A stretch of 64,000 bases of DNA from Suillus spraguei (taxonomy: Eukaryota > Basidiomycota > Agaricomycetes > Boletales > Suillaceae). The position numbers and the translations under genes were made by a program. The notes beneath the pieces were generated by a model, which was not told the origin of the DNA, did not search any database, and saw nothing but the letters and a program-made list of their open reading frames with translations. The stretch covers positions 23,927 to 87,926 of the forward strand of contig JABCPU010000285.1 of NCBI GenBank assembly GCA_016800925.1, given 5' to 3'. Numbering within the stretch: position 1 is the stretch's first letter; every line of letters begins with the position of its first letter. Positions 19,541-57,169 of this stretch are shown in pieces.

Positions 19541-22117
19541 ATGTGCCATAGGTCATCATCTACTGTGATTAGCACGGCTGAACAGAATTCATAATATGGT
19601 AGTGTTCAAACTGGTACTTGAAAGGATTAGTTGGTTCCAATTGCAAGGCAGCATCAGATCATTATAACATAGGAACCTGTGATCAACCACATCCATTCCA
19701 ATGAAACATAACTGCAAAGGTCATAAACCAAGAACATTCACCGGCTCGGGTGTCTTATATCCTCCCAGGCTATAGTGTCATATTTATGCATAATTATGGC
19801 TGATAAGAGACACCATGGTTATGGATGGTTGATGCTTATCCTCAACCACTGCTGCCTTTATGCATAATGGTGTCAAGATCCTTTGGTAGGTCATTTTGGC
19901 CATTTTGGTCATGGATCTAGCTTCTCAATCTACAAATATGGTCTTATTGGGACAGAACCTTCCAGGCTCCTGTTCCTTCTTGCTCTTCTGCCACCTTTGA
20001 TGGGTTCAAACCATCATGTGCATTCAAACCATCACGTGCTATATTTGCCCAGATTTTTTCTAAGTCCCTTGGCCCCTTCAAACCATCACATGCTTTATAC
20101 TTGCCCAGATTTTTCCTAAGTCTGTTGGCCATGACTTCAAGTGTTCAATATTTCAACATTTAATTAGTTTTGTTCACAAGATCAAGTTGGTCATATGGTT
20201 TCAGAATTCAACATATAGAATCTTTGAATTAGCTTTTTTTTCTCGCAACATCCAGTCCATCATATCCAAGTTGTTTCGGAATAATGATCAAGATTGATTC
20301 TGATTCGTTCCAGTCAGATTGTCTCAATAATTACACAATGTTGCAATAAATGACACTAAATGGGTTGTAACAAAATTAAGTATGAATAATGTATGGACTT
20401 GTCGATGAACTAATCTACTTCTGCCTCCTGCTTGAAACACATGAGACAAGCACAGAGCAGAAAAGAAACAGAAACACACACTTCTTTGTAGGTCCGCTTG
20501 TTCCAGCAGCAGGCCTCGTTTGCTTCATGTTTTGGCCAATGTTATTGGCCTGTGTGAGTCTTGTTGTCTCTATGCGAATGTGCTGACATGCACCAAACTG
20601 GTCTGGTGCATGGCTGACTAAACACTACTGCAGCTGACAAATAGTACCAGGACTATAATAGCTTAGTGTTCCTCTATTCAGAAATCAATCCATGATGCAG
20701 AATCGAAAGTTTCTTTTTGCTCGTAAAAGTTTGCTTATTATTTCTAATTCATTTTTCATGGGTGTGTTTATGTATGTTTGGCTACAGAAACTACTTCATA
20801 AGATTCCCACAGATGTCAGGTGACCCCAGCAAAATAATTACATAGAGTTACCCTGCAGAAAAACTCACGAAACACACTATGATTCACTCGCGTCACCTCT
20901 ATGCATCTACAAAAAGTGCAAATTTATGCTTCAAATATTACATAATTGATATTCCTCCTAGGATAGCCACTAATAGTCACCTGATCTCAAATTTATGCAT
21001 AGCCATTGATATCCCACATGACTTTTTCTCACACCCTTGAGCATATTACAAATCAACTATGACAATATTCAATAAATAGGGTAGGTCAGCACCCCTACAA
21101 AATGTGGGAAAACAGTAGCATAGCCATTCATTTTGTCTATATAATACCCACCTTTTTGTCAATAAGAGAGAGATTTTCTCCCCCTCAAAAATATAACTGA
21201 GAGTGAAGTGTGACCAGCACTATCAGCACACTGTTAAGAACATTGTCAACAACAGTAAGATTGGAAGTCTACACTGTGAGACAGCACTACCTTGAGCTCA
21301 CTGTGTCTGACAACCAGCAAGACAACAATTTTTTTTTCTTTGACAAATTCATTCTAGTTTCTTTCATCATCTTTCTCTCTGTTTTTCTTTCTCTGTTCTC
21401 TGTTTCCTTGCTTCTGTTTCTTTTGAATCTTTCTCTTTTCTTCTTTTTCTTTGATTACTGGTCTCTCTCTCTCTTTTAAAGTTTGTTGGTTCTAAGTGTC
21501 CTTGTGTTTCTAATATTTGTGTTGTCTCTTTAGTCCATCTAAGGCCAGAGTAGCTTAGTGGGAGAGACTTTAGAGGTTGACAGTGACACTTGATCTCACA
21601 CATCTGAGTAGCGATACTGAGTTAAGGTCTTCACTGACTGATAGACTCTAGTTATTGAAAGGGGACTTGGTATTGAAATCCAAGGACGTCCGTTCCTACT
21701 AACTGTTTAATACTCATAGTGAGTTCCTTGGCAGCAGGTTCAATAGTAAGCTAGAAGATCTCTGAAGTAGTGACTAGTCTTGACCAGGGATCCTACCTGC
21801 TTGTCTGAGAAGGTGATTGTTGTAACTTCCCACAAATTGCAGTAGCACAGTTGTTGCAAAACACCTGCATTCCATCAGAGAGAGTGATTTGGCCAGTTAT
21901 TTTTGTTTCTTAGTTTGTTTGACTTCTGTGTTTTTTCTTTGAAGTTTAGTTGTTTCAAGAATCTTTGTCATTGTCCAAGAGTTTGCTGATCTCACAGAAT
22001 TGACTCATTTGCTGACCATAGCCTGGGGAACATAAATAGCCACCTACGTACAACCACATTATCAGTCATTGGTATTTGTCTGAATCACTGACCGTGGAGA
22101 TATTATATTTGGTGTTA
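19541..22117. other. Non-coding AT-rich region with minor repeats
   Basis: No gene is supported. A two-copy tandem repeat of about 54 bp lies at 20023-20132; each unit begins TTCAAACCATCAC and contains TTGCCCAGATTTTT. A pyrimidine-rich tract lies at 21330-21480. At 21540-21565 the sequence GTAGCTTAGTGGGAGAG resembles a tRNA-type box A, but no clear box B or cloverleaf follows. The stretch around 21030-21180 has a TATA-like TATATAATA and could be part of an old LTR, though I find no matching partner in the window. Confidence 0.35.
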
Positions 22118-23734
22118 CAGTGGCTCAAAAAACTGTCCGCATGTTTTGGCATTTTTCACTATCTATAATATTGTGTGAGAACAAACAAATGCCTCAAAAA
22201 CATGCTTATACCACATTGTAGTATGGCTTCAGGGCTTTCATTTGAGCCCTACACCGTGGGAATCGGTGGAGATATGGTGGAGATACAAGGCTCACAAAAT
22301 GGTGACTCATGCAGACAGTTTTTTGACTCAAGTATTTTACAGTAATAACCAGGTATTCTAGTATTTTGTATGACCTCCCTTGGCTTTAATTACTGCCTCT
22401 ATCCTTCTAGGCATACTCTCAATTAATTTCTGGCAATCCTCAGCTGTGATTTTCCCCCATTCCACTGCTACTCTCTCCCAAAGCTCCCATACTCCTTTAG
22501 GGGGGTTTTCATAGGCTTGAAGCTTTTTCTTGAGTGTTCCCCAGAGATGTTCAATGACATTGACATCAGGAGACTGTGCTGGCCAGTCAAGAACATTGAT
22601 GTTATGTTCTTCAAACCATTCCCTAGCTCTTCTGGATGTGTGCTTGGGATCATTATCCTGTTGGAAAATGATATCTTCTTCATCAATCCCTGATTCTGCC
22701 AAGCTAGGCAGCAAGTGGTCATTTAAAATGTCCACATACTGCTCAGCATTCATCTTCCCCTCAACCTCAGCAAGCATTCCCACACCATTCCATCCCATAC
22801 AGCCCAATACCATTAAAGAACCTCCTCCAAACTTGACAGTCCCATTAACCTCTCTGTCTGTTAGGCCATCTCCCTTCTTTTTCCATACATACACCTTCCC
22901 ATCTGACCCAATCCTATTGATTTTGGTCTCATCTGACCATATAACACGCTTCCAGTCCTCTACAGTCCAGTGTTGATGAGCTAAGGCAAAGGCTAGTCTT
23001 CTCTGGCTATGTTTGATGGAGAGAAGAGGCTTTTTCTTCTTTGTTACTGCCTTGAGATGAGCTGCCTTGAGAACATTCCTCACAGTTTGTGAAGAGACAG
23101 GGGTAGTGATGGTGGAATTGATATAATGGGTGGCTTGGACAGCATTATCAGCCTTTCCTGTAGTGATATGTTGGATAATAGCCCTTTTGTCAGTAGAGGT
23201 AAGCTTGGATGGACGTCCTCCACAAGAGTTTTCCTTGTCTGGGTGGCTTTCTTTGATGAACTTGGCCACAGTGGACTTGCATACTCCAGTTCTAGAGGAA
23301 ATTTGGCGAGCAGAGAGGCCAGCATAAGACAGAGAGAGGATATTATCTCTTTGAGCAGAGGAGATGGCTTTCATGGTGATTATGACTATGATACATGAGA
23401 TATTCTGGTTTATATAGTTAGATATAGTCATAAAATAACATAATGACACCACTTTATAATTTATATAATAGTGGCATGATTTTTATGGTGTCATAAATAA
23501 TGATTTATATAGTTTTAATATACACTCAAAAAACTGTCCACATGAGTCATCATTTTATAAGCCTTATATCTCCACCATATCTCCGCCGATTCCCACGGTG
23601 TAGGGCTCAAATAAAAGCCCTGAAGCCATACTACAATGTGGTATAAGTATGTCCTTGAGGAATTTGTTCATTCTCACACAATATCATAGATAGTGAAAAA
23701 TGTCAAAACATGCAGACAGTTTTTTGAGCCACTG
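22118..23734 (-). mobile_element. Tc1-type transposon, copy 1 (minus orientation)
   Basis: The element starts CAGTGGCTCAAAAAACTGTC after a TA at 22116-22117 and ends with the reverse complement before a TA at 23735-23736, the Tc1/mariner TA target duplication. It is 1617 bp with long imperfect terminal inverted repeats of about 210 bp. It appears identical, in opposite orientation, to the copy at 42364-43980, and its transposase is intact. This points to recent movement. Confidence 0.95.
22358..23374 (-). CDS. Tc1-family DD34E transposase, copy 1
   Basis: This protein would cut and paste the surrounding element at TA sites. The start is the Met of MKAISSAQRDNI (338 residues); an earlier in-frame Met 26 codons upstream is less likely because that stretch lies in AT-rich leader sequence. 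The N-terminus has paired helix-turn-helix motifs (LSYAGLSARQISSRTGVCKS) and a GRP-type linker, GGRPSKL. Catalytic residues are visible in VIWSDETKI (first Asp), FQQDNDPKHTS (second Asp) and VNVIEHLWG (Glu), with exactly 34 residues between the second Asp and the Glu. No frame break is present. The protein is identical to that of the second copy. Confidence 0.95.
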   Translation of the reverse strand: MKAISSAQRDNILSLSYAGLSARQISSRTGVCKSTVAKFIKESHPDKENSCGGRPSKLTSTDKRAIIQHITTGKADNAVQATHYINSTITTPVSSQTVRNVLKAAHLKAVTKKKKPLLSIKHSQRRLAFALAHQHWTVEDWKRVIWSDETKINRIGSDGKVYVWKKKGDGLTDREVNGTVKFGGGSLMVLGCMGWNGVGMLAEVEGKMNAEQYVDILNDHLLPSLAESGIDEEDIIFQQDNDPKHTSRRAREWFEEHNINVLDWPAQSPDVNVIEHLWGTLKKKLQAYENPPKGVWELWERVAVEWGKITAEDCQKLIESMPRRIEAVIKAKGGHTKY

Positions 23735-23758
23735 TATAGGTCTTTATCTATAGATCAT

Positions 23759-27377: not shown

Positions 27378-27688
27378 ATGGGAAAAAGCCAGCGCACAAA
27401 AGAGCTGGCGAAGCTGCAAAAACAATGGCATGATGTGAATTTTGAGTATCAAGCTAGGCAACAGGCTCAACGACAGCAGGCTGCAAATGCACGCTTGGTT
27501 GAGGAAACAGGCAAGCAAATTCTTTACCACAAACATCAGTTGTATACTATTAAAGGACCTAGTCATCTTTCTACCTCAATGGACTATCTCACCAATACAT
27601 CTGCACCCTTCCAAGTGACTCCAGATGCGATAGAAACCAGCTCAAGTGATCTATTTTTTGATTTCAACGACGATGACAATGCAGCATA

Positions 27689-28162
27689 TGTTACAATCGT
27701 ACGTGCCCCTATTCATTTTCTACTCCATTTATCTTGTATATTACGTAACATGACTCTGACTCACATGCTCAACGCATCTGTACTATAGTTGCCTTCCTTC
27801 TTAGGATACGCACTTACATTCTCACGTGTTGCTTGGTCTGTGCGCACATATTGGCCTATTTAAGCACAGTGTACTTGTAGTAGATTCGCTACTTTAATCT
27901 TACTGGGTTTTACCTGGAATCTCCTTCGCTTAGGTCTCCAACCTAAGTCGTCTTGAATCGTCTCTAAGTCTAAGCACTCCTTAGCCTTAGTCTCTATTCT
28001 CGCGGATACCTCTCGGACTTATCCTTGAGGCTGAACCCTTGATCGTACTCGGAACACGTTCCTTGTACTTTCACCTTGTTCTCTTTTGAACATTGTAAGA
28101 ACTCCCAGCAGACCGTCTGTGTCTTTTCACTGTCGCTGGTGATGCCACCCCAGTTCGTAACA
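27689..28162 (+). repeat. 5' LTR of A1
   Basis: 474 bp, starting TGTTACAATCGTACG and ending GTTCGTAACA. A TATA-like TATTTAAG lies at 27857-27864. A perfect hairpin, CTTAGGT/ACCTAAG with a 5-nt loop, lies at 27929-27947 in the transcribed part. Confidence 0.95.
27857..27901 (+). promoter_or_regulatory. LTR promoter and predicted self-primer 5' end (A1)
   Basis: TATTTAAG at 27857 is followed 34 nt later by ACTTTAATCTT (27891-27901), the exact reverse complement of the primer-binding site after the LTR. The position fits a transcription start about 30 nt past a TATA box. The same spacing occurs in A2 (37955 and 37989) and A3 (47681 and 47715). Confidence 0.65.
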
Positions 28163-28163
28163 A

Positions 28164-28174
28164 AAGATTAAAGT
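28164..28174 (+). promoter_or_regulatory. Primer-binding site, self-priming type (A1)
   Basis: AAGATTAAAGT begins one base after the LTR end. It does not look like a tRNA 3'-end complement such as TGG. It pairs perfectly over 11 nt with the predicted 5' end of the element's own RNA (27891-27901), as in Tf1/Sushi-type elements. Confidence 0.7.
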
Positions 28175-28360: not shown

Positions 28361-29197
28361 ATGTCGACCAAAGAATTCGAATACAAGATCGGTCAACCGA
28401 TTGGTTTTGATGGAGATCGCGATAACTCTCGCGAGTTTATCCAGTCGTGCAACCTGCACTTTGACATCAATGAAAAGCTTTACACCACCGACAAGCAGAA
28501 GATCATCTACATAACATCTTTTATGACCGAAAAGAATGCCAAGTCTTGGAAGGAACAATTCCTTGAACACGCCCAATCTACCGACACTTCGGGACAAAAA
28601 GTTGGTTATGGGACGATGGTGGATTTTATGAAGAGCTTCAAAGAAGCATTCGAACCAGTGGATACCAGAATGACCGCGCTTACACGCCTTAGAGACCTCA
28701 AGCAAGGAACTGGAGATCTTCACACCTATGTCGCCGACTTTGAGGCACTTGCAGCCAAGGCTCATATCACCGATAATGCGACGAAGATCCAGTTCTTCCA
28801 AGATGGTCTCAACTGGGGTATCCTCACGAAGCTTTTCAATATGGGAGATGTCTCCGAGATATTCAGAGATGTTGTGCTGCAATGCGTTGCTATTGACAAC
28901 GCCCATCATCGGCTTAATGCCATGAGGACACGTCATGTTCCACAACAGAAAAAGAAGAACTACGGGAATGCACGGTATATTCCGAACCGTGATTCCAACG
29001 CAATGGTCGTGGACCGAATCTCCGATATGGAGAGATCCGAATGCATGAAGAAAGGACAATGCTTCGGATGCAGAAAGACAGGACACCGTATCCATAATTG
29101 TCCTGACAGAAAGAAGAAGACTCCACTTAGACAAACTGAAGTCAAAGGAGAAGAAGAAGATGAAGAAACCGTGCGACGGATTGTTGAGGATTTTTGA
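28361..29197 (+). CDS. Gag polyprotein, Gypsy A1
   Basis: A 278-residue Gag forming the virus-like particle. The central retrotransposon-Gag region has MTEKNAKSWKEQFLEH and LHTYVADFEALAAKA. A CCHC nucleic-acid-binding knuckle, CFGCRKTGHRIHNC, lies near residue 230. The acidic tail is EEEDEETVRRIVEDF. The start follows the LTR and leader by about 200 bp. The frame is intact. The stop at 29195-29197 overlaps the beginning of the pol frame, which is shifted by one base. Confidence 0.92.
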   Translation: MSTKEFEYKIGQPIGFDGDRDNSREFIQSCNLHFDINEKLYTTDKQKIIYITSFMTEKNAKSWKEQFLEHAQSTDTSGQKVGYGTMVDFMKSFKEAFEPVDTRMTALTRLRDLKQGTGDLHTYVADFEALAAKAHITDNATKIQFFQDGLNWGILTKLFNMGDVSEIFRDVVLQCVAIDNAHHRLNAMRTRHVPQQKKKNYGNARYIPNRDSNAMVVDRISDMERSECMKKGQCFGCRKTGHRIHNCPDRKKKTPLRQTEVKGEEEDEETVRRIVEDF

Positions 29198-32100
29198 CTT
29201 GGAGAAACAAAGACTCGACGTATGTTTCTCCCAATGTATTACTAAGACTTGTACGCGCTGTAGGTGAAAGAAAAGAACTTCGTGTCCCTATCACCCTCCA
29301 CTCGCGTACTCGCTTAAAATCCGTTGACACCACCGCTGTTATCGACTCAGGAGCAGCAGGCACATTCATCTCAGAAGAGTTTGTGAAACTCCATCAAATC
29401 ACACGACAAAAACTCAAGGAACCATTTCGAGTTACAACGGCAGATGGGACTCTCATAAAAGGAGGACCAATCACGCATTACTGCCTCCTAGTGGTCAAGA
29501 TTGACGATCGAACCATGTATGGAAAATTCAATATCACCAAACTAGGAAGGAGAGATCAAATCCTTCTTGGAATTCCTTGGTTACGAGCAATGAACCCAAT
29601 TATAGATTGGGCTGCTGAAACACTTGTCCTTTCACGAACAGAGAAATCTGATGAAATCGAAATCGATATAGATAAAGACAGACAAAAGAATGGGTTGCCA
29701 CGATTATTCAATCACCATACCAGATGGCAACATTCCCGTCTTCCGAAACCAAGCACCGCTTCTCCTGCTGATGTTCCAGAAGACCCAGAACCAGAAGTAC
29801 GTACTCCACGTACTGCAGAACCCACTCCACGTGTACAACTGCCGCGAGCAGTATCGCCGATTCCCCGCGCAGAGAAGCGCAAGAATGAATCTGAACCTGA
29901 GCATCGGGTCGGACAAGAACCTATTGAGCAACGGCCAATAGAAGAACAGAAACAGGGAAAGAGAAAACCGGAAGAAGAACTCCCAGGGCGAGACACCAAT
30001 ATACCGAAATTATCCAAGTTCTTCGTTCCCCCGAAAACTCCTTCAGCTTCAATAGAAGAAATCCCTGATACAGAAGAACCCGTGCCCTCGTTGATCCCAA
30101 CCGAGGATGATGACCAATTCGATACCATGAATGATGTCTGGCATGCGCCGGAAGTGCGCGAAATTTCCTCTTATGAGCTCGGAGATGGTGAATTTCTCGT
30201 GGAATACGACACTGATGGAGTTAGCATGAGGATCATAGAAGAAGTATCCATGGATACACCATTGACACGTGATGGAACTTCCCAACTCGAACAATCCTCC
30301 AACTACTCCACCATTCCCCTCTCCACTCCGAAATATAGTAACAAAGCTCAGGAATTCGCCACGGATGAGAAGGAAAAGAAAAAGAAATCCTTTGAAGAAT
30401 TGGTCCCGGATTATCTACATGACTTCGCAGACGTCTTTGCTAAAGACGGACTGAACAAACTACCCCCAGAACGCCCTGGTATAGATCATCGGATCGATAC
30501 TAAACCCGGTTTCATTCCTCGAACGTCTAAGGTCTACCCGCTATCGGAAAAAGAACGCACTGCTGTCAAAACGTTTATCGATGAAAACGTTGCGAAAGGA
30601 TTCATCTTGGAATCGAAGTCACCTCAAGCCAGTGGCTTCTTCTTTGTGGGAAAGAAAAGTGGAGAACTGCGCCCCTGTCAAGATTATCGCTACATCAATG
30701 ATTGGACAGTCAAGAACGCATATCCGCTTCCACTTCCTATTTCCCTTGTCGCACGACTTCATAACGCACAGTTCTTTACGAAAATGGATATCCGGTCCGG
30801 TTATAACAATATTCGCATCCATCCTGATGATAGGTGGAAAGCTGCTTTTACCACGGAATTTGGCCTCTTTGAACCGAACATCATGTTCTTCGGCCTCTGC
30901 AATTCCCCAGCAACTTTTCAAGCATACATGAATCGCACCTTTCAGCAAGAAATCAATGAAGGATGGATGGTTATCTATATGGACGATATCCTGATTTTCT
31001 CCACAACAATGGCAGAACACCGTGAACGGACCAGACGAGTTTTGATGAAAATACGAAAAGAACACCTGTTCTTGAAACCGGAGAAATGCACCTTCGATGC
31101 AAAAGAAGTGGAATACCTCGGAATGATAATTCGCCCCGGACAAGTTGCTATGGACACCGCCAAGACCAAGGGAATCTCCGAATGGCCAATCCCGAAATCA
31201 GTAAAAGATGTTCGGTCATTCCTCGGCTTTTGCAACTTCTACCGCACGTTCATTTCCCACTACTCTGACATCGCCAGACCCCTTATCGATTTAACGAAGA
31301 AAGATAAGGCATTTGATTGGTCAACCGAATGTATGGACACCTTCGAAGAATTGAAACGACGCTTCACTTCCCAACCGGTACTCCGTAACCCTGATCCTTC
31401 ACGCCAATTTGCCATTGCTACCGACGCTTCGCTCGTAGCAACCGGCGGAGTTCTCCTGCAGACTGATGAGAATGGTGTTTATCATCCATGTGCATATCTC
31501 TCACAGTCTTTGAACCCTGCGGAACGCAATTACCAGATCTTTGATAGGGAACTCCTTGCCGTGATTCGGGCATTGAACGAATGGCGTCATTATCTCGAAG
31601 GAAACCCACACCCCGTCCTGGTATTCACCGACCATAAGAACCTTCTGTACTTTAGAAGTGCACAGAAGCTTACCCGTCGCCAAGCACGTTGGCAATTGAT
31701 TTTGTCTATTTACGACATCGAATTGCATCACGTTGCAGGTACTAAATTAGCAGTACCTGATGCACTATCTCGCCGGCCTGATTATGACTCTGGCAAAGAT
31801 GATAACGAAGATCAAACCCTCCTCCCTGATGCTCTATTCGTTCGTCTTATCGACACCGACTTGAAGGATGTACTATCATCCTCTGACCCCCTTGACGATC
31901 CTGTCTTCAAGACAGCGTCTGATGCCCTTGATGGAGTGTGCCTTCCTCCTATGAAATCGGCACTCTCCGATTGGAAGATTGAGGAGAACGTCCTCTATTT
32001 TAAAAATCGCGCCTATATTCCGCCGGCGCATCGCTCCGATATCCTGAAGCGGTATCATGATCATCCTACCGCGGGTCATCCCGGTAGATTCAAAACTGAA

Positions 32101-33298
32101 GAACTAGTGAAACGGGAAGCCTGGTGGCCTGCTATGGGCTCTTATATTCGAAAATACGTTGAGGGTTGCGCCCTTTGTCAGCAAATGAAAGCGGATACAC
32201 ATCCTGTTCGCCCCCGCTTACGCCTATTCCCTCTTCGGCTGTTCGCCCGTTCTCTCAGGTCTCTGTCGACCTTATCACTGACCTCCCTGTCTCTGGAGGC
32301 TTTGACAGTATCATGGTCGTGGTAGACCATGGCCTTACGAAGGGGGTAATTATTATCCCTTGTTTGAAAACCATCACCTCAGAAGGCGTTGCTAAGCTAT
32401 TTTTGAAACACGTATACCGACGATTTGGACTCCACGACAAAGTTATCTCGGATCGAGGACCGCAATTCTTATCTCGCTTCTCAAAGGAACTTGCCCGACT
32501 TCTCGACTACGTCATCGCTCCATCCACGGCTTACCACCCACAGACTGATGGTCAAACTGAAAGACTAAATCAAGAACTTGAAACATACCTCCGCATTTAC
32601 TGCCGTAACAACCCCGAAGATTGGGTAGAACACCTACCAATCGCCGAATTCGTCCACAACCACCGAAAACACGATGCAAGAAATGCATCACCCTTCTATT
32701 TGATGATGGGATATGAACCACGCGCTATCCCTCATCTGATCCCCGATTCATCCGTCCCCGCAGCAGAAGATCGAGTATGATCTTTGCAGAAGATAAGAGA
32801 AGAAGCAATCGCCTGTCACAACATTGCCATGCAGACAATGACCGAACGATCCGAGGAGATAAGTACACCCCATGGAAGATCGGAGATAAGGTTTGGCTAT
32901 CCGCCGCTAATCTTAGACTTAAACTCCCATCGAGGAAATTGGCACCGAAACGATACGGACCTTTCCCGATCATCGATGTCTTATCTCCTATCACGTTCAC
33001 GCTCAAACTCCCTCCGCAATGGAAGATCCACCCCACATTCCACGCTTCTGTCTTATCATCCTATAGCGAAACGGACGTACATGGCCCGAACTTCCCTGAA
33101 CCACCCCCTGACATCATCGAAGAAGAAGAAGAATATGAAATCGAAGCGATTCTTTCTCACAAAGGAACCGGCAATCGCCGACGTTATCTTGTTTCATGGA
33201 AAGGATACTCATCGGGAGATAACGAATGGCTCCCAGAAAAGAATTTGAAGAACTCCGCTCAAATCCTAAATGCTTATAAGAAGCAACACGCCCTCTGA
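29194..33298 (+). pseudogene. Pol polyprotein (PR-RT-RNase H-INT-chromodomain), Gypsy A1, broken
   Basis: The polyprotein has an aspartic protease (VIDSGAAGTFISEEF, about residue 50), reverse transcriptase with intact YMDD (about 30980), RNase H (ATDASLVATGGVLL), the integrase zinc region HPTAGHPGRFK to CALCQQMK, the integrase core ([28 protein letters not shown]) and a C-terminal chromodomain (YEIEAILSHKG to SWKGYSSGDNEWLPE). The long frame 29194-32325 ends after a one-base deletion in a C run at about 32213. The frame resumes at 32166-32780, where TGA replaces the arginine codon region seen in A3. A second one-base deletion, also in a C run, lies at about 32850. No ATG is seen at the pol start. 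Without these lesions the length would be normal. Confidence 0.9.
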
Positions 33299-34843: not shown

Positions 34844-34856
34844 AAAAGGGGGGTAA
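34844..34856 (+). promoter_or_regulatory. Polypurine tract (A1)
   Basis: AAAAGGGGGGTAA lies directly before the 3' LTR. This is the expected plus-strand priming site. Equivalent tracts precede the 3' LTRs of A2 (about 47260) and A3 (about 54615). Confidence 0.8.
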
Positions 34857-35330
34857 TGTTACAATCGTACGTGCCCCTATTCATTTTCTACTCCATTTAT
34901 CTTGTATATTACGTAACATGACTCTGACTCACATGCTCAACGCATCTGTACTATAGTTGCCTTCCTTCTTAGGATACGCACTTACATTCTCACGTGTTGC
35001 TTGGTCTGTGCGCACATATTGGCCTATTTAAGCACAGTGTACTTGTAGTAGATTCGCTACTTTAATCTTACTGGGTTTTACCTGGAATCTCCTTCGCTTA
35101 GGTCTCCAACCTAAGTCGTCTTGAATCGTCTCTAAGTCTAAGCACTCCTTAGCCTTAGTCTCTATTCTCGCGGATACCTCTCGGACTTATCCTTGAGGCT
35201 GAACCCTTGATCGTACTCGGAACACGTTCCTTGTACTTTCACCTTGTTCTCTTTTGAACATTGTAAGAACTCCCAGCAGACCGTCTGTGTCTTTTCACTG
35301 TCGCTGGTGACGCCACCCCAGTTCGTAACA
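34857..35330 (+). repeat. 3' LTR of A1
   Basis: 474 bp, matching the 5' LTR with one visible difference, a CpG kept here and TpG in the 5' copy. It is followed by the GCATA target repeat. Confidence 0.95.
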
Positions 35331-36240
35331 GCATACACCATCTACAATGAGCATGTGTTTGACACGACAGTGGAGCCTAAAAAGCGCAGACGCACTGCTG
35401 CAGTAAGTCTTACATGGATTACATTTCACCCACCTACTGAGACTCAATCAGGACAATCCTATTGTGCTTTGGGTCAAGGAATGTGAAATTTACCTCCTAG
35501 AACTTCTTCGGTTGGAAGGCCGTGGTGACTATGTATATACCAAATTGCAATTGTGATAGTCCAGATGTTGTTTGCTAACCATGTGATCAACTAGGTATCA
35601 GTCTATTACGCAAACTAAAGGCCACTATACCAGAATGCGATCAACACCAGCATGACTTCCACAAATTAAATGAGATGCTTATCGCCGAGCGTATGGAGGA
35701 GGTAGCAATCTGGATACAAGGAGTTGAGAAGTGGGAAGCGGACATGTCAGCAATGAACCCTTTCAGTCCGACGACAGCAAGTAAGTCATCAATATTTGTT
35801 TCTTAGACTCTACTAACATCTTTTCAGCCATGACCCAGGCATCCGTCAGGTTAACCATCTCTCAGGAAGAAGCTCAAGAGCTCAAGCATGGCATCAACAG
35901 TTCCCTCCACAATGAAATCTCACCGGCTGTCCTTATTTCATCAGGCATTGGGATTGAAGAGGAACAGTAAGTTTTGCAATTTACCCTCTTCAGTTGATTG
36001 TTTACAAACGGCTCCCCAGACACCAACTTCTGCGAGATCTTTCTGTGCTTGGTGACCATGCGACTGATCTTCAATGTTCAAAGCTGCAAGATCGCACAAA
36101 CGTACTGCAGTGCAAAGTTGAGCAGTGGTGTGAGGTTCAAGTCTTGTACATGCCCTCTGTGGCCCCTGTCAGATCTTCCCATAGCTCAAGTAGCAACACA
36201 TCAAAGGAGGAGAAGGCATACAAAATCAGACTATGGCTCC

Positions 36241-37785: not shown

Positions 37786-38257
37786 TGTTACAGTTGTATG
37801 TACCCCTATTCATTTTCTCGTCTCCTTTACCTTGTATATTACGTAACAAGACTCAGACTCATATGCTTAATGCATCTGTACTATAGTTGCCTTCCTTCTT
37901 TGGATACGTACTAACATTCCCACATCTCTCTTGGTCCGTGCACACATATTTGCTTATTTAAGCACGATGTATTATGCTTGTATACTTTACTTTAATCTTA
38001 CTGGGTTTTACCTGGAATATCCTTCGCTTAGGTCTTCAACCTAAGTCGTCTTGAATTGTCTCTAAGTCTAAGCACTCCTTAGTCTTAGTCTCTATTCTAG
38101 TAGAACCTCTTAGACTTGTCTTCGAGGCCGAACCCCTGATCGTACTCGGAACGCATTCCTTGTACGTCCGTCTTGTCCTTTTGGACATTGAAGAACTTCC
38201 CAGCAGACCGTCTGTGTCTTTTCACTGTCGCTGGAGATGCCATCCCAGTTCATAACA
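37786..38257 (+). repeat. 5' LTR of A2
   Basis: 472 bp, TGTTACAGTTGTATG to GTTCATAACA. TATTTAAG lies at 37955 and the self-primer motif ACTTTAATCTT at 37989-37999, again 34 nt apart. The primer-binding site AAGATTAAAGT lies at 38259-38269. Other positions have diverged clearly from A1 and A3, so the conserved pairing and spacing are notable. Confidence 0.93.
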
Positions 38258-38386
38258 AAAGATTAAAGTCTCCCTGATCGTCGACTACCCAGTCTCCGAC
38301 CCTGAACCCTGAAAAAGCCCTAGTGGACAGCAAGACAGTGCGTGTAGGCACTGAGAAAGTACAAACTCACCAGACGAATCATCATC

Positions 38387-42200: not shown

Positions 42201-42363
42201 GAAAGCGGATACACATCCTGTCCGCCCTCCCCTTGCGCCAATTCCCTCATCTGCGACTCGCCCCTTTTCTCAGGTCTCCGTTGATCTTATCACTAACCTT
42301 CCTGTCTCTGGCGGTTTTGAGAGTATTATGGTCGTGGTAGACCATGGCCTTATGAAGGGGGTA

Positions 42364-43980
42364 CAGTGGCTCAAAAAACTGTCTGCATGTTTTGACATTT
42401 TTCACTATCTATGATATTGTGTGAGAATGAACAAATTCCTCAAGGACATACTTATACCACATTGTAGTATGGCTTCAGGGCTTTTATTTGAGCCCTACAC
42501 CGTGGGAATCGGCGGAGATATGGTGGAGATATAAGGCTTATAAAATGATGACTCATGTGGACAGTTTTTTGAGTGTATATTAAAACTATATAAATCATTA
42601 TTTATGACACCATAAAAATCATGCCACTATTATATAAATTATAAAGTGGTGTCATTATGTTATTTTATGACTATATCTAACTATATAAACCAGAATATCT
42701 CATGTATCATAGTCATAATCACCATGAAAGCCATCTCCTCTGCTCAAAGAGATAATATCCTCTCTCTGTCTTATGCTGGCCTCTCTGCTCGCCAAATTTC
42801 CTCTAGAACTGGAGTATGCAAGTCCACTGTGGCCAAGTTCATCAAAGAAAGCCACCCAGACAAGGAAAACTCTTGTGGAGGACGTCCATCCAAGCTTACC
42901 TCTACTGACAAAAGGGCTATTATCCAACATATCACTACAGGAAAGGCTGATAATGCTGTCCAAGCCACCCATTATATCAATTCCACCATCACTACCCCTG
43001 TCTCTTCACAAACTGTGAGGAATGTTCTCAAGGCAGCTCATCTCAAGGCAGTAACAAAGAAGAAAAAGCCTCTTCTCTCCATCAAACATAGCCAGAGAAG
43101 ACTAGCCTTTGCCTTAGCTCATCAACACTGGACTGTAGAGGACTGGAAGCGTGTTATATGGTCAGATGAGACCAAAATCAATAGGATTGGGTCAGATGGG
43201 AAGGTGTATGTATGGAAAAAGAAGGGAGATGGCCTAACAGACAGAGAGGTTAATGGGACTGTCAAGTTTGGAGGAGGTTCTTTAATGGTATTGGGCTGTA
43301 TGGGATGGAATGGTGTGGGAATGCTTGCTGAGGTTGAGGGGAAGATGAATGCTGAGCAGTATGTGGACATTTTAAATGACCACTTGCTGCCTAGCTTGGC
43401 AGAATCAGGGATTGATGAAGAAGATATCATTTTCCAACAGGATAATGATCCCAAGCACACATCCAGAAGAGCTAGGGAATGGTTTGAAGAACATAACATC
43501 AATGTTCTTGACTGGCCAGCACAGTCTCCTGATGTCAATGTCATTGAACATCTCTGGGGAACACTCAAGAAAAAGCTTCAAGCCTATGAAAACCCCCCTA
43601 AAGGAGTATGGGAGCTTTGGGAGAGAGTAGCAGTGGAATGGGGGAAAATCACAGCTGAGGATTGCCAGAAATTAATTGAGAGTATGCCTAGAAGGATAGA
43701 GGCAGTAATTAAAGCCAAGGGAGGTCATACAAAATACTAGAATACCTGGTTATTACTGTAAAATACTTGAGTCAAAAAACTGTCTGCATGAGTCACCATT
43801 TTGTGAGCCTTGTATCTCCACCATATCTCCACCGATTCCCACGGTGTAGGGCTCAAATGAAAGCCCTGAAGCCATACTACAATGTGGTATAAGCATGTTT
43901 TTGAGGCATTTGTTTGTTCTCACACAATATTATAGATAGTGAAAAATGCCAAAACATGCGGACAGTTTTTTGAGCCACTG
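42364..43980 (+). mobile_element. Tc1-type transposon, copy 2 (plus orientation)
   Basis: 1617 bp between TA dinucleotides at 42362-42363 and 43981-43982, inserted in the integrase core of A2. Terminal inverted repeats are about 210 bp. Each also contains an inner inverted copy of the outer motif, GACAGTTTTTTGAG at 42560-42573 on the left and its complement at about 43771-43784 on the right. The sequence appears identical to copy 1. Confidence 0.95.
42724..43740 (+). CDS. Tc1-family DD34E transposase, copy 2
   Basis: 338 residues from MKAISSAQRDNI, identical to the protein of the copy at 22358-23374. HTH motifs lie in the first 110 residues. DDE residues are in VIWSDETKI, FQQDNDPKHTS and VNVIEHLWG. 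The frame is uninterrupted, with an AT-rich leader upstream. An intact catalytic triad and two identical copies suggest the family is or was very recently active. Confidence 0.95.
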   Translation: MKAISSAQRDNILSLSYAGLSARQISSRTGVCKSTVAKFIKESHPDKENSCGGRPSKLTSTDKRAIIQHITTGKADNAVQATHYINSTITTPVSSQTVRNVLKAAHLKAVTKKKKPLLSIKHSQRRLAFALAHQHWTVEDWKRVIWSDETKINRIGSDGKVYVWKKKGDGLTDREVNGTVKFGGGSLMVLGCMGWNGVGMLAEVEGKMNAEQYVDILNDHLLPSLAESGIDEEDIIFQQDNDPKHTSRRAREWFEEHNINVLDWPAQSPDVNVIEHLWGTLKKKLQAYENPPKGVWELWERVAVEWGKITAEDCQKLIESMPRRIEAVIKAKGGHTKY

Positions 43981-44964
43981 TAATTATCATCCCTTGTTTG
44001 AAAACCGTAACTTCTGAAGGCATTGCCAAACTTTTCTTTAAACATGTTTACCGCCAATTTGGACTCCATGACAAAGTCATCTCGGATTGAGGTCCGCAAT
44101 TCCTATCTCGCTTCTCCAAGGAGCTTGCCCAACTTCTCGACTATGTCATCGCCCCATCTACGGCTTATCACCCTCAGACTGATGGCCAAACTGAGAGGCT
44201 CAATCAAGAACTAGAAACGTATTTGCACATCTATTGCCGTAATAACCCTGAAGATTGGGTGGAACACTTACCAATCGCCGAATTTGTCCACAATCACCGA
44301 AAACACAATGCAAGGAATGCATCACCCTTCTATCTAATGATGGGATATGAACCACATGCTATCCCTCACCTGATCCCTGACTCATCCGTCCCTGCAGCAG
44401 AAGATCGAGTACGATCCCTGCAGAAAATAAGAGAAGAAGCAATTGCCTGCCATAACATTGCGATGCAAACAATGGCTGAACGATCCCGAGGAGAAAAGTA
44501 TGCTCCATGGAAAATCGGAGATAAGGTCTGGCTATCTGCTACTAATCTTAGACTTAAACTCCCATCACGGAAACTTGCGCCAAAACGATATGGACCTTTC
44601 CCGATCATCGATGTCTTATCACCCATCACATTTATGCTCAAACTTCCCCCACAGTGGAAAATTCATCCCACTTTCCATGCTTCCATCTTATCATCCTATA
44701 GCAAAACAGACGTACACGGCCCGAACTTCACCGAACCACCACCTGACATTATCGAAGAAGAAGAAGAATACGAAGTAGAAGCTATTCTCTCCCACAAGGG
44801 AACCGGTATTCGCCGACGCTATCTTGTTTCCTGGAAAGGATATTCATTGGGAGATAACGAATGGCTCCCAGAAAAGAATTTAGCAAATTCCACGAGGATT
44901 TTGACCGCTTATAAGAAACGACATGCCCTTTGAATTCAAATCAACCTCCCATAAACGATCCAAT

Positions 44965-47239
44965 ATGACCTCTCCTGTAAACGCTTCTTTCCCCACTGCC
45001 TACATTCACCCTGTCACCGAAGAAACTTATACTACCACTGACCACTATGCCGACCTCATCAGAAATATCAACGGAAACTCCTTCGTTGAAGCAGCCCTCC
45101 TTTGTCCTGGACACGCAACAGAGATTGAAAAAATCCTTACCGGCAAGGACGCGTTCGTCACTATCCTCCTTACCAATATCATCCGCACAGCCGCCCTTAT
45201 CGAAACCATTTGCAACGACGTCCACGACGATGCTGTTCGTCAGCAAATCTTACATTGTCAGAAACGCATTTGCTCTTACGGGCTGCTTCTCCTTCCCAAT
45301 TCTTTTAAGGCTGATGTTGAAATGGCTATTCACATCGTGGCCGAGTGTCATAAACCATACTTCTAATCTCAGATCCGACCATATCCAATCAGATCCAATC
45401 TATTCCATATCTGTCCGGTCCACAGATCCTGTCCGGACCACCCATCCGAATGTACTCACTTCTTGCACCTTAACTCCCTTGTGTATATCTGCGTCTATCT
45501 CCTTTCGTCATTCCTCCTGTTTCCGGTATTCCGGCTGTTTATATTTCCGTCCTGTGTTACTGATCCGTTTCCTGTGTTCATTTCTGATTCATGCTTACTG
45601 ATCCGCTGTGCATTAACTAATAGACTTCCGTTACACTTCATACATAGCCCTCGGTCCCGGACTTGCTGATTATCCGTCTTAGATACTTACAGTATATAAA
45701 CCACTTGTAAATCTCCGTAGAACCTTAGTTCAAATATCATCTTAGATTCTACTCATTCTGTTTCCTCCGGACTTAAGCCACTTTCCACTTTAAGTCACCT
45801 TCTGAGACTTAGGATTGATTCCTATAGTCTATATCTCCAACTTTGTCTTCGGATAGTCTACCTCCGTTAGTTTCTAGTTAGGAACTCGTTCCGAAGCTAG
45901 CCTTAATCTCTGTCCTCTTCTTACGTTCCGAACAACCTTTGGACATCTCATATCCGATACCTTCGGACACCCGGATCTGTCAGGCAACTCCTTCCAGGTC
46001 TTTGGACGAATAAACTCCTCCCTGAAATAAGGGGCATTACTCGAGAAAGGGGCACAGTGCACGAACTGAGGCCAAAGCCCTTCGGATCTCTCTCCCCTTG
46101 AGTACGGTCTTAACACCGAGCATCGAGCGGGTGTGGCGAGACCTCCCTCTCCACAAAGAGATCCACTCCCAATTCCTGCTCCTCCCACCTGCGATTCGGG
46201 CACTCGTTCTAATATCGCTGCCCTTACTGGCTTACTCGCTGCTGTTCAGGAAGCCAATAACACAGCTGACGCTATCATCAAAGAGCTTGAGGGAGCAACA
46301 GTTGACTCAAGAGAAGCGAGAGGACTGGTAGCTCGCTTAATTGACGCCATCCACCATTACGAAACACAACCCACACCATCGCCAATCAATGCTACCATCA
46401 TGCTTGATGAGGGCACAGAACCTCCTCATCTGTTCACCGAATGCCACGCCACACATGAAAAAGCAGTCGTAAATAATGCATTACACAATGAGCTTGCTGA
46501 GATTATCGCGCTTGGAAATCATGTAGCTGCCGAAGAACATAACAAGTCCATTGAAGTTGACACGCTTGGTCGACTTTTAAAAGACCTGCATATCCATCCT
46601 CCTATGGTCGTCCCTCACGATCTCAACTCTACCATCCCCATCCTCGTAGAAGCCCTAGGACCCACATTATCCTCAGACCCAAACGAACTGCTAGCTGCAG
46701 CCATCGTAACACCAGCGTCCTCTATTTACACTATTGATGATCATCAAATCGACGACATTCGCTCTAGTAACGAGCGAGCCCTTAGACGTATCACTCGTAA
46801 ACACGGAAAGAAACAAACACGTTCTACAAGCCCTCACCATCGCACTGTCGCCCCAACTCCGCTTCGACAAGCACGCTCCAATCCTGACGAAAACATGAAG
46901 TGCCGCGTCTGCGGATTACTTGGGCATCATCAGAAGAATTGTGCGGAGTACCAGTGCGGAGTCTGTCAATACTGGTCGCCTACTCACTTATCCATTTACT
47001 GTCCTCAACGAGTTGGAACTCCTCCTTTCACTCTAACTTGGAAGGATGATGGGTTCTACGATGCGCTTCGTTCTTGGGAACGACAGCTTGACGATGAACG
47101 AACTCGAGCAGCAGAAAGGCAGGATTCGAAACGACATGCTGGTGCTGAAGAAGCTAAGTACATGAGGAGTGGATCGGTCCTTGATGAGAATTACGAGTAT
47201 AGTGACGATCCTATCTATTATGCTAACCAGAGTGAGTAA
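44965..47239 (+). pseudogene. Third ORF (zinc-knuckle) of A2, interrupted by a solo B LTR
   Basis: The ORF begins MTSPVNASFPTAYIHPVT at 44965 and is clearly diverged from A1 and A3. It runs to the solo LTR at 45346 and resumes at about 46121, continuing through PPSPQRD, coiled and linker segments to CRVCGLLGHHQKNC and CGVCQYWSPTHLSIYC. The end is YYANQSE at 47239. Apart from the insertion, the frame is open across both halves even though Pol of the same copy is full of stops. Conserved cysteine and histidine positions across A1, A2 and A3 support a real protein. Function is unknown. Confidence 0.78.
45346..46115 (+). repeat. Solo LTR of Gypsy B inside A2
   Basis: 770 bp, TGTCATAAACCATAC to GTCTTAACA, flanked by the 5-bp repeat CCGAG (45341-45345 and 46116-46120). 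No internal sequence is left, so it arose by LTR-LTR recombination of a complete B insertion. It gives the uninterrupted reference for the B LTR. TATATAAA at 45693 and AGTTCAAATAT at 45727 are 34 nt apart. Confidence 0.92.
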
Positions 47240-47509: not shown

Positions 47510-47986
47510 TGTTACAATTGTATGTACCCCTATTCATTTTCTCTTCTGTTCCCTTTCTTGTATATCTTGTCACGTGACTCTGACTCATATGCTCAACGCA
47601 TCTGTACAAACACATGCCTTCCTTATTAGGATACACAGTTACGTTCTCACGGTTACTTGGTCTGTGCGCACATATTGGCCTATTTAAGCACAGTGTACTT
47701 ATAGTAGATTCTTTACTTTAATCTTACTGGGTTTTACCTGGAATCTCCTTCGCTTAGGTCTCCAACCTAAGTCATCTTGAATCGTCTCTAAGTCTAAGCA
47801 CTCCTTAGCCTTAGTCTCTATTCTCGCGGACACCTCTTAGACTTGTCTTTGAGGCTGAACCCTTGATCGTACTCGGAACGCGTTCCTTGTACTTTCACCT
47901 TGTCCTCTTCTGGACATTGTAAGAACTCCCAGCAGACCGTCTGTGTCTTTTCACTGTCGCTGGTGATGCCACCCCAGTTCGTAACA
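47510..47986 (+). repeat. 5' LTR of A3
   Basis: 477 bp, TGTTACAATTGTATG to GTTCGTAACA. It carries the TATA box, self-primer motif and the CTTAGGT/ACCTAAG hairpin. It has lost four CpG sites that the 3' LTR keeps. Confidence 0.94.
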
Positions 47987-48186
47987 AAAGATTAAAGTCC
48001 ATTTTGATCGTCGACTATCTAGTCTTCGACCCCGAACCCTGATCGCTTAAGATCAGCAGACTAGCGTACGCTTACGCTGAGCAGATTGTCAAGAGGAAGC
48101 CCCCTGACAGAAGAAAGCCCTGATGGACAGCAAGACAGTGCGTGTAGGCACCGAGAAAGTATAACTCATCAGAAGAATCATCAACC

Positions 48187-49023: not shown

Positions 49024-52000
49024 TGTGGAGAAACAAAGATTCGACGTATGTTTCTCCCAATGTAATACTAAGACTTGTACACGCTGTAGGTGAAAGAAAA
49101 GAACTTCGTGTCCCTATCACCCTTCACTCGCGTACTCGCTTGAAATCCGTCGACACCACCACTGTTATCAATTCAGGAGCAGCGGGAACATTCATCTCCA
49201 AGGAGTTTGTGAAACTCCATCAAATCACACGACGAAAACTCAAAACACCATTTCGAGTTACAACGGCGGATGGAACCCTTATAAAAGGAGGACCAATTAC
49301 GCATTACTGTCTTCTTGTGGTCAAGATTGACGAACGAACCATGTATGGAAAATTCAACATTACCAAACTAGGAAGGAGAGATCAAATCCTTCTTGGAATT
49401 CCATGGTTACAAGCAATGAACCCAATTATAGATTGGGCTGCTGAAACACTTATCCTTTCACAAACAGAGAAATCAGATGAAATCGAAATCGATTTGGACG
49501 AAGATCGAAAGAAGAACGGGTTGCCCCGACTCTTCAATCATCACACCAGATGGCAACATCCCCGTCTTCCAAAGCCCTTCATCATTGATGTCCCTGAAAA
49601 CCCTGAACCCGAAGTATGAATGCCACGTACTACAGAACCTACTCCACGTGTACAACTGCCGCGAGCAGTATCACCAATCCCTCGTGCAGAGAAGCGCAAG
49701 AATGAATCTGAACCCGAATATCGGGCTGGACAAGAACCTATTGAGCAACGGCCAATAGAAGAACAGAAACATGGAAAAAGAAAAGCTGAAGAAGAGATCT
49801 CAGGACGGGATACCAACATACCAAAACTATCCAAGTTCTACGTTCCTCCGAAAACTCTTTCAGCTTCAATTGAAGAAACCCCCGATGAAGAAGAACCCGT
49901 GCCCTCGTTGATCCCAACAGAGGATGATGACCAATTCAACACTATGCAAGATGTCTGGCATGCACCAGAAGTACGCGAAATCTCCTCTTATGAGCTTGGA
50001 GATGGAGAATTCCTTGTGGAGTATGATACTGACGGAGTCAGCATGAGGATTATAGAGGAAGTATCCATGGATACACCTTTGACACGTGATGGAACTTCCA
50101 AACTCGAACAATCCTCCAACTACTCCACAGTTCCCCTTCCTCCTCCTAAATACAGCAACAAGGCTCAGGAATTTGCCACGGATGAGAAGGAAAAGAAAAA
50201 GAAATCCTTCGAAGAATTGGTCCCCGATTATTTGCATGACTTCGCAGACGTCTTTGCCAAAGACGGATTGAACAAACTACCCCCTGAGCGCCCTGGTATC
50301 GATCATCGGATTGACACCAAACCAGGTTTTATTCCCCGTACGTCTAAGGTCTACCCGCTATCAGAAAAAGAACGCGCTGCTGTCAAAATGTTTATCGATG
50401 AAAACGTCGCGAAAGGATTCATCTCAGAATCGAAGTCACCTCAAGCTAGTGGCTTCTTCTTTGTGGGAAAGAAAAGTGGAGAATTGCGTCCCTGTCAAGA
50501 TTATCGCTACATTAATGATTGGACAGTCAAGAACGCATACCCGCTCCCGCTCCCTATCTCTCTTGTCGCACGTCTTCACAACGCACAATTCTTTACGAAA
50601 ATGGATATCCGGTCCGGCTATAACAATATTCGCATCCATCCTGATGATAGGTGGAAAGCTGCTTTTACCACGGAATTCGGCCTCTTCGAACCGAACGTTA
50701 TGTTCTTCGGTCTTTGTAATTCTCCAGCAACCTTCCAAGCATACATGAATCGCACCTTTCAACAAGAAATCAATGAAGGATGGATGGTTATCTACATGGA
50801 CAATATCCTAATTTTCTCTACAACAATGGCAGAACACCGCGAAAGGACTAGATGGGTTTTGATGAAGATACGGAAAGAACACCTGTTCTTGAAACCAGAG
50901 AAATGCACCTTCGATGCAGAAGAAGTGGAATACCTCGGAATGATAATTCGCCCCGGACAAATTGCTATGGATACCGCCAAGACCAAGGGAATCTCCGAAT
51001 GGCCAGTCCCGAAATCTGTAAAAGATGTTCGGTCATTCCTCGGTTTTTGCAACTTCTACCGCACGTTCATTTCCCATTATTCTGACATCGCTCGACCCCT
51101 TATCGATTTAACAAAGAAAGATAAGGCCTTTGAATGGACAACTGAATGTATGGACACCTTTGAAGAACTGAAACGACGCTTCACATCTCAACCAGTACTC
51201 CGTAACCCTGATCCTTCCCGACAATTTGCTATTGCTACCGACGCTTCACTCATAGCAACTGGTGGAGTTCTCCTGCAGACTGATGAGAATGGTGTTTATC
51301 ACCCCTGTGCGTACCTCTCGCAGTCGTTAAACCCCGCGGAACGCAACTATCAGATCTTTGATCGGGAACTCCTTGCCGTAATCCGGGCATTGAACGAATG
51401 GCGTCATTATCTCGAAGGAAACTCACACCCTGTCCTGGTATTCACCGACCACAAGAACCTTCTGTACTTTAGAAGTGCACAGAAGCTTACCCGTCGCCAA
51501 GCATGTTGGCAATTGATTTTGTCTATCTATGACATTGAACTGCATCATGTTGCAGGTACTAAATTAGCAGTACCTGATGCGCTTTCTTGCCGACCCGATT
51601 ATGATTCCGGCAAAGACGATAACGAGGACCAGACCCTCCTCCCTGACGCTCTATTTGTTCGTCTTATTGACACCGACTTGAAGGACGTGCTGTCCTCCTC
51701 TGACCCCCTCGACGACCCTGTCTTCAAAACAGCATCTGATGCCCTTGATGGCGTGTGCCTTCCCCCTATGAAATCGGCACTCTCTGACTGGAAGATTGAG
51801 GAGAACGTCCTCTATTTTAAGAATCGCGCCTATGTTCCACCGGCGCATCGCTCCGATATCCTGAAAAGGTATCATGATCATCCTACCGCGGGACATCCCG
51901 GTAGGTTCAAAACTGAAGAACTCGTTAAACGAGAAGCCTGGTGGCCTGCTATGGGCTCTTATATTCGGAAATACATCGAAGGTTGTGCCCTTTGTCAACA

Positions 52001-53117
52001 AATGAAAGCGGATACTCACCCCGTTCGACCCCCGCTTACCCCGATTTCCTCATCTGCGACTCAGCCTTTCTCCCAGGTCTCTGTTGACCTCATCACTGAT
52101 CTCCCTGTCTCTGGAGGCTTTGACAGTATCATGGTCGTGGTAGACCATGGCCTTACGAAGGGGGTAATTATTACCCCTTGTTTGAAAACCATCACTTCAG
52201 AAGGTGTGGCTAAGCTATTTTTAAAACATGTTTACCGACGATTTGGACTCCATGACAAAGTCATCTCGGATCGAGGACCGCAATTCCTATCTCGCTTCTC
52301 AAAGGAACTTGCCAGACTTCTCGACTATGTCATCGCTCCATCCATGGCTTACCACCCACAGACTGATGGCCAAACTGAAAGGCTAAATCAAGAACTTGAA
52401 ACATACCTCCGCATCTACTGCTGTAACAACCCCGAAGATTGGGTAGAACATCTACCAATCGCCGAATTCGTCCACAACCACCAAAAACACGATGCAAGGA
52501 ATGCATCACCCTTTTATCTAATGATGGGATATGAACCACGCGCCATCCCTCATCTTATCCCCGATTCATCAGTCCCTGCAGCAGAAGACCAAGTACGATC
52601 TCTGCAGAAGATAAGAGAAGAAGCAATCGCCTGTCATAACATTGCAATGCAGACAATGGCCGAACGATCCCGAGGAGATAAGTACACCCCATGGAAGATT
52701 GGAGATAAGGTTTGGCTATCTGCTGCCAATCTTAGACTCAAACTTCCATCAAAGAAACTCGCCCCGAAGCGATACGGACCTTTCCCAATCATCGATGTCT
52801 TATCTCCCATCACGTTCATGCTCAAGCTCCCTCCGCAGTGGAAAATCCACCCCACGTTCCATGCTTCTGTCTTATCATCCTATAGCGAAACAGACGTACA
52901 CGGCCCGAACTTCACTGAACCACCACCTGATATCATCGAAGAAGAAGAAGAATATGAAATAGAAGCAATTCTTTCTCACAAAGGAACCAGCATTCGCCGA
53001 CGTTATCTCGTTTCTTGGAAAGGATATTCATCGGGAGATAACGAATGGCTCCCAGAAAAGAACTTGAAGAACTCCGCTCGAATCCTGAATGCTTATAAGA
53101 AGCAGCATGCCCTCTGA
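49023..53117 (+). pseudogene. Pol polyprotein, Gypsy A3, one nonsense codon and a mutated RT motif
   Basis: The first frame, 49023-49619, holds protease, but the motif reads INSGAAGTF, with Asn in place of the catalytic Asp of the DSG triad. It ends in TGA where A1 has an arginine-type codon. The frame then runs uninterrupted for 1165 codons from 49620 through RT, RNase H, the integrase zinc region, the integrase core and the chromodomain (SWKGYSSGDNEWLPE). The RT catalytic motif is YMDN (about 50795), not YMDD. Several arginines are cysteine or histidine-type relative to A1, consistent with CpG decay. Despite its length it is unlikely to make active protease or reverse transcriptase, though the integrase looks complete. 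Confidence 0.9.
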
Positions 53118-55716: not shown

Positions 55717-55727
55717 ATATTCGAACT
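55717..55727 (+). promoter_or_regulatory. Primer-binding site, self-priming type (family B)
   Basis: ATATTCGAACT starts 2 nt after the LTR end. It pairs with AGTTCAAATAT in the LTR (55351-55361; also 45727-45737 in the solo LTR) at 10 of 11 positions. The one mismatch is the site where a CpG would have become CpA. The LTR motif is 34 nt past the TATA box once the A2 insertion is removed. Confidence 0.55.
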
Positions 55728-55767
55728 CACACCTTTCTGAGTAACATTCTCTACACCATCCCACGTC

Positions 55768-57060: not shown

Positions 57061-57169
57061 TCTGTGACCCTCCTGACTCCGTGCGGGATGAGGGTCACAT
57101 TGGCCCAACCCATACAACAGAGCTTCACTCAATGCTGTAACTCTTCCTGACCCGAACTCTCTATGTCCA

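Follow-up and report, generated by a model that had tools for sequence, protein, structure and literature searches.

Sequence evidence for probable Tf1-type self-priming in Ty3/Gypsy retrotransposon families of the mushroom-forming fungus Suillus spraguei

The window analysed (64,000 nt; C464:23927–87926 of a Suillus spraguei assembly of 86 Mb in 1256 contigs, which was searched genome-wide) holds three copies, A1, A2 and A3, of a Ty3/Gypsy family (A), A3 being nested inside the 3' LTR of A2, and an element and a solo LTR of another family (B); coordinates and target duplications are collected in Table 1. The A2 insertion (37786) lies within a B LTR, between the B TATA box and the B primer, and the A3 insertion (47510) within the A2 3' LTR, 35 nt after the primer start; both nested insertions sit at LTR promoters, two cases that may be chance, and for Tf1 integration at promoters has been described (PMC5741268, excerpts). 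Other features of the window: two 1622-bp DNA transposons, 100% identical and in opposite orientation (374-aa DDE_3/Tc3-type transposase; inverted terminal repeats of ~211 bp, 92% alike), one of which lies inside A2; a NACHT-WD40 (STAND) gene with ~129-bp tandem repeats, ~80% alike, the best named relatives of its protein being Suillus proteins.

Table 1. Positions of the elements, of the proposed primers and primer binding sites (PBS) and of other features; numbering is that of the window except for the Copia control.
Feature	Position	Strand	Remarks
A1 target duplication GCATA	27684–27688 and 35331–35335		flanking letters
A1 5' LTR, TGTTAC...GTAACA	27689–28162	+	474 bp; self-BLAST
A1 TATA-like box TATTTAAG	27857–27864	+	
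A1 proposed self-primer ACTTTAATCTT	27891–27901	+	exact complement of PBS; predicted pairing 0.70–1.00 per pair
A1 ACTGGG	27902–27907	+	predicted partner CCCAGT, 28149–28154, just before LTR end
A1 TCGTAACAA	28155–28163		bulge beside primer–PBS helix in predicted fold
A1 PBS AAGATTAAAGT	28164–28174	+	1 nt (an A) after LTR
A1 gag with CCHC zinc knuckle CFGCRKTGHRIHNC	28361–29197	+	PF03732/PF19259; first ATG assumed as start
A1 pol frame (protease, RT, RNase H, H2C2)	29188–32325	+	−1 relative to gag; stops before integrase core
A1 likely polypurine tract AAAAGGGGGG	34844–34853	+	3 nt before 3' LTR; presumptive
A1 3' LTR	34857–35330	+	99.8% identity with 5' LTR (self-BLAST)
A2 5' LTR	37786–38257	+	target duplication GAACC
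A2 TATA; primer; PBS	37955; 37989–37999; 38259–38269	+	
A3 5' LTR	47510–47986	+	target duplication ATCCT
A3 TATA; primer; PBS	47681; 47715–47725; 47988–47998	+	
A3 pol frame (RT, RNase H, H2C2, weak rve, SH3_Tf2-1, chromodomain)	49620–53117	+	rve below Pfam cut-off
Primer-sense ACTTTAATCTT sites	27891, 35059, 37989, 47475, 47715, 54833, 62331		last on minus strand
ACTTTAATCTT sites that are PBS	28164, 38259, 47988		
B solo LTR, TGTCAT...TTAACA	45346–46114	+	target duplication CCGAG
B solo LTR: TATATAAA; primer-like AGTTCAAATAT	45693; 45727	+	34 nt apart
B element	55345–62071		5' LTR split by A2
B 5' LTR, right part	55345–55714	+	
B primer AGTTCAAATAT	55351–55361	+	
B PBS ATATTCGAACT	55717–55727	+	2-nt spacer
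B RT/RNase H region	57920–59164	+	41% identity to A1; 3 stops
DNA transposons, 1622 bp	22115–23736 and 42362–43983		opposite orientation
NACHT-WD40 (STAND) gene	457–3887	−	
Copia control L071	G000:C202:65900–72700		LTRs ~336 bp, 100% identical; PBS TGGTAGCAGCAAC

Coding regions: the gag of A1 lies in frame 2 and its pol in frame 1, and no classical slippery heptamer was found at this −1 step; a CCHC gag and a −1 gag/pol step are usual in Tf1/sushi elements outside the fission yeasts (PMC10085805, excerpts). A3 encodes a chromodomain (PF00385, E 1.1e-9) and an SH3_Tf2-1 domain (PF24626, E 5.8e-16), and these Pfam domains fit a Tf1-type chromovirus (Ty3/Gypsy). The A1 pol frame ends earlier. B has SH3_Tf2-1 and rve, no chromodomain being found in the scanned frame.

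The 11-nt site beside the 5' LTR of A1 is, as the initial annotation had it, the exact complement of a motif within the LTR, and its coordinates were correct to the base; the distance of 34 nt from the start of TATTTAAG to the primer was likewise found in A1, A2 and A3 alike. The statement that the rest of the LTRs had diverged holds only in part: the next ~20 nt (ACTGGGTTTTACCTGGAAT) are as well conserved as the primer, and the ~25 nt that separate TATTTAAG from the primer motif vary most among A1–A3. As to the conservation in three copies, the same layout stands in A1–A3, but it says little by itself, since these copies are of recent common descent; families B and C, described below, are stronger evidence.

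Within the A1 5' LTR ACTTTAATCTT occurs at 27891 only. Ten exact occurrences were found in the window (both strands), seven of them primer-sense, one for each family-A LTR copy (seven copies by self-BLAST); with at most one mismatch there were 11 in the window against 1.59 expected, a number reached by 0/100 shuffles. Of 2000 dinucleotide shuffles of the A1 LTR, 4 contained, at any position, 11 nt complementary to the first 14 nt past the LTR; the constant distance from the TATA box makes a chance match rarer still. Genome-wide the LTR-end pattern of A matched 1194 sites, 715 of them followed by exact spacer and PBS; the block downstream of the primer matched 1793 sites, with the exact primer in 99 of 100 listed. 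A tally by eye of 100 listed LTR-end sites gave: 51 exact PBS; 1 exact PBS without the spacer; 4 changed PBS; 1 doubtful; in the remaining 43, unrelated letters follow, as expected of 3' or solo LTRs. The A copies share descent, so these counts reflect abundance and not repeated selection.

Family C: copies were found in L061–L067 (LTRs of 475 bp, TGTCAC...GTGACA); its LTR gave no match of at least 300 nt in the window, which contains LTRs of both A and B, and L061 shows no match to the A LTR of L069. The primer AGTTCAAACCT and the PBS AGGTTTGAACT form an exact 11-nt pair within each of the single copies L061, L062 and L063; the spacer between LTR and PBS is 2 nt and the primer begins 35 nt after TATATA. 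The primer was exact in 13/14 LTRs examined, the PBS in 79/83 sites, and an 11-nt match somewhere in the C LTR arose in 1/2000 shuffles. Two different C copies, L111 and L112 (G000:C536 and C662), carry the same PBS change opposite primer nt 1; the base at this place might escape re-templating if the first RNA nucleotide were capped or variable. A supposed fourth family (L067, L068–L070) is in fact a further A-subfamily copy that contains nested LTRs.

Family B: the LTRs gave no self-BLAST match with the A LTRs of the window. The consensus is primer AGTTC[G/A]AATAT and PBS ATATT[C/T]GAACT, with a spacer of 2 nt and the primer at TATA + 34; the copy in the window shows one A·C mismatch between primer and PBS. 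PBS forms (52 sites): ATATTCGAACT (C) 43, ATATTTGAACT (T) 9; primer forms (100 listed of 1209 sites): AGTTCGAATAT (G) 83, AGTTCAAATAT (A) 17. The majority forms, G in the primer and C in the PBS, thus pair exactly; as primer and PBS were taken from separate lists of sites, the exact pair is known between majority forms and not per copy. These tallies were counted by eye with patterns that allow two letters at one place and no other change, and they do not measure the number of intact B sites. The similar shares of the variants (17/100 primer A; 9/52 PBS T) could come from matched sub-lineages or from equal CpG decay. B and C have AGTTC[G/A]AA in common in their primers, a string that resembles the core of the tRNA T-arm; it may be shared by accident, inherited from a common ancestor of the two families, or captured from a tRNA.

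Spacers in A, B and C are thus 1, 2 and 2 nt, and TATA-to-primer distances 34, 34 and 35 nt, which is where a TATA-directed transcription start would be expected. A PBS near the 5' LTR that is complementary to the expected 5' end of the RNA, as in Tf1/sushi elements, was found within single copies of A and C; in B the complement is exact between majority forms, with one mismatch in the copy examined.

Within families, copies with a changed PBS were checked for a compensating primer: none was found in eight (four A, four C, one of the latter being the copy in L065), and the standard primer was kept in all eight. The A part comprises the four variant copies among the 100 listed sites, the doubtful C58:168923 being left out. 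A ninth copy (C, L018) has lost one base in both primer and PBS and is still unmatched; among 13 sites with a changed A primer nt 11 neither G000:C122 nor C131 was present, the PBS change of which would need one. C122 and C131 show the same PBS variant, and the offsets of their PBS and B-primer sites are equal within ~6 nt; they are possibly one locus assembled twice, in which case the eight uncompensated copies may be seven. This result counts against self-priming; private mutations after insertion account for it most simply, and primer–PBS covariation is accordingly seen only between families.

The fold-back geometry invoked by the initial annotation finds support in the predicted leader structures (R-U5-PBS), which are dominated by primer–PBS pairing. 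Predicted probability per primer–PBS pair: A1–A3 0.70–1.00; C 0.72–0.97; mismatched B copy 0.59–0.84, and 0 at the mismatch. Separation of primer and PBS: A1 273, A2 270, A3 273, C 128, B 366 nt. Fold z-scores against shuffles: A1 −3.8, A2 −3.8, C −0.2, the C leader being no stabler than its shuffles. Next to the primer, ACUGGG (nt 12–17) is predicted to pair with CCCAGU (8–13 nt before the LTR end) in the MFE and centroid structures of A1 and in the MFE structure of A3; in A2 this pairing is present in the centroid and absent from the MFE structure. In A1 and A3 it would leave the LTR end GUAACA bulged beside the primer–PBS helix. By length the 6-nt match is not significant (218–250/400 shuffles do as well), and a downstream duplex stands out in B only (1/400 shuffles). 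In A the predicted upstream arm is similar to an arm of the pretzel described for Tf1 (PMC10085805, excerpts). Looking for pretzel arms by pairing energy yielded mostly gapped pairings and no consistent result; the central primer–PBS duplex is strongly predicted, and for neither A nor C could the pair of duplexes that flank it in the pretzel be established.

Priming of family A by a host tRNA, through its 3' end or through an internal (half-tRNA) end, was weighed against the tRNA genes of the assembly (at least 50, of which 34, 29 distinct, were tested with CCA added) and against one Copia element of the same genome. That no tRNA-type site is visible, as first noted, was upheld: TGG is absent from the first 24 nt past the LTR in A1–A3, B and C alike. 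Contiguous 3'-anchored pairing with the 34 tRNA genes: A1–A3 at most 1 nt; B at most 1 nt; C at most 2 nt; Copia control 13 nt. Best scattered matches to the last 11 nt of a tRNA: A 5–6; B 7; C 6; Copia 11. The 13 nt of the control are formed by its PBS, TGGTAGCAGCAAC, with two tRNA genes, and no self-complement of at least 8 nt was found in that element. A tRNA-type PBS, i.e., a TGG start together with pairing to a tRNA 3' end, was thus found in none of A1–A3, B and C. Internal matches reach 10 nt between the B PBS region and one tRNA and at most 6 nt in A; the B PBS contains TTCGAA, like the tRNA T-arm, and this was counted, with the internal match, in favour of a tRNA, but the 10-nt match stops short of that end of the PBS which faces the LTR. 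In some Copia lineages half-tRNAs serve as primers (PMC6317226, excerpts). With 34 of at least 50 tRNA genes compared, priming of family A by a tRNA is considered very unlikely.

Another small host RNA carrying the 11-nt sequence might prime instead of the 5' end of the element; this is compatible with the sequence, the transcription start of the element being itself deduced, but it would require a separate host RNA for each family, each matching the TATA + 34 segment of that very element, and we regard it as most improbable. A chance match between LTR and PBS, such as arose somewhere in 4/2000 shuffles of the A1 LTR and 1/2000 of the C LTR, has a negligible probability, as C and the majority forms of B show such a complement too, in other letters, always over 11 nt and at TATA + 34–35.

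RT identities: A1–C 50–53%; A1–B 41%; window B–C 43–45%; RT of the older A2 copy 38% to B and 45–49% to C; a fish RT (P0056, Nothobranchius) 46% to A1 with 99% of the query covered, 44% to window B (51% to a shorter B piece in L065) and 44–47% to C. A, B and C are therefore about as far apart as each is from a fish element. Of the 120 best RT relatives, all that carry an organism name are agaricomycetes, apart from one fish. A quick RT tree (31 rows: 5 sequences of this study, 25 of the 360 proteins retrieved, and Ty3 as the outgroup; without Tf1, marY1 and sushi references) placed A and C on one side (support 99) and B on the other (100), the fish falling between them without a firm place; the long Ty3 branch was flagged, and the tree does not decide membership of the Tf1/sushi clade. 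In viral contigs five stretches matched a pattern, none of which encodes a relative.

In Tf1 the first 11 nt of the RNA are complementary to the PBS beside the 5' LTR; transcription starts at primer nt 1, RNase H cuts after nt 11 and priming proceeds from the freed end (PMC7175516 and PMC10085805, excerpts). Tf1/Tf2 of Schizosaccharomyces pombe and family A share the 11-nt self-complement and, from A3, the chromodomain integrase and the Tf2-type SH3 domain; they differ in the letters of the primer and in the coding region, as gag, which carries a CCHC motif, and pol occupy separate frames a −1 step apart in A1, whereas Tf1/Tf2 consist of a single ORF that lacks CCHC (PMC10085805, excerpts). 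In family A the cleavage and priming steps would be those of Tf1. In Tj1 (S. japonicus), Tosmo1–3 and Tcry1 a self-primer was predicted, as here, from LTR–PBS complementarity, and a pretzel fold was proposed (PMC4600332 and PMC10085805, excerpts); unlike A1, these elements belong to the fission-yeast clade, lack a CCHC gag and have an in-frame stop at gag/pol.

For basidiomycetes, self-priming has already been proposed for Tcn1 of Cryptococcus neoformans, and Tcn2–5 may prime in novel ways (PMC7175516, excerpts); Tcn1 is likened to A by this description and not by sequence comparison. Self-priming was proposed also for most plant elements of the Tcn1 lineage in mosses and clubmosses (PMC6317226, excerpts), and SM-Tcn1 of Selaginella was assigned neither tRNA nor self-priming (PMC2864245, excerpts). 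marY1 of Tricholoma matsutake, like A from an agaricomycete, and sushi-ichi of pufferfish are counted with the Tf1/sushi group (PMC6317226 and PMC10085805, excerpts), and both are likened to A by this membership, without direct sequence comparison; the priming mode of marY1 was not found in the available parts of texts on it. Self-priming is regarded as common to the Tf1/sushi group (PMC10085805, excerpts). The main text on Laccaria elements (PMC3411680) is without PBS, primer, tRNA or self-priming. No description of families A–C was found in the openly available parts of the self-priming/PBS literature on basidiomycetes, subscription papers lying mostly outside this scope. The families would thus be a further case of Tf1/sushi-type self-priming, which is already known, and they themselves seem undescribed, which is no proof of absence.

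The Tf1-like self-priming suggested by the initial annotation draws support, at the level of sequence, from the negative tRNA comparisons, the pairs of families B and C, the predicted fold and the A3 domains. The TATA box TATTTAAG would start the RNA at or very near ACTTTAATCTT, so that ACTTTAATCTT would be the first 11 nt of the A1 RNA and R would begin there; these 11 nt would fold back over ~270 nt onto the PBS lying 1 nt behind the 5' LTR; by analogy with Tf1, the RNase H of the element would nick the RNA after nt 11 and the freed 3' OH would prime minus-strand DNA. Family C, and most likely B, would take the same route with 11-nt pairs of their own and of different letters. Family A is thus very probably a self-priming, Tf1-type chromovirus of a basidiomycete.

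A wider reading, possible rather than probable, is that self-priming is the common mode among the Ty3/Gypsy elements of this genome and that, with the divergence of families, primer and PBS are replaced together, the primer being locked to the transcription start. If this is true, one genome would hold three natural primer/PBS pairs with leaders of 128 to 366 nt, perhaps a fourth in the A-primer and T-PBS forms of B, and every cycle would rewrite the PBS from the RNA primer. Self-priming of these families would in itself extend to high-copy elements of a mushroom-forming fungus a rare mode of priming that was shown in Tf1; the two to three natural pairs would make the matching and the tolerated distance testable, and LTR annotation restricted to tRNA-type PBSs will overlook elements of this kind.
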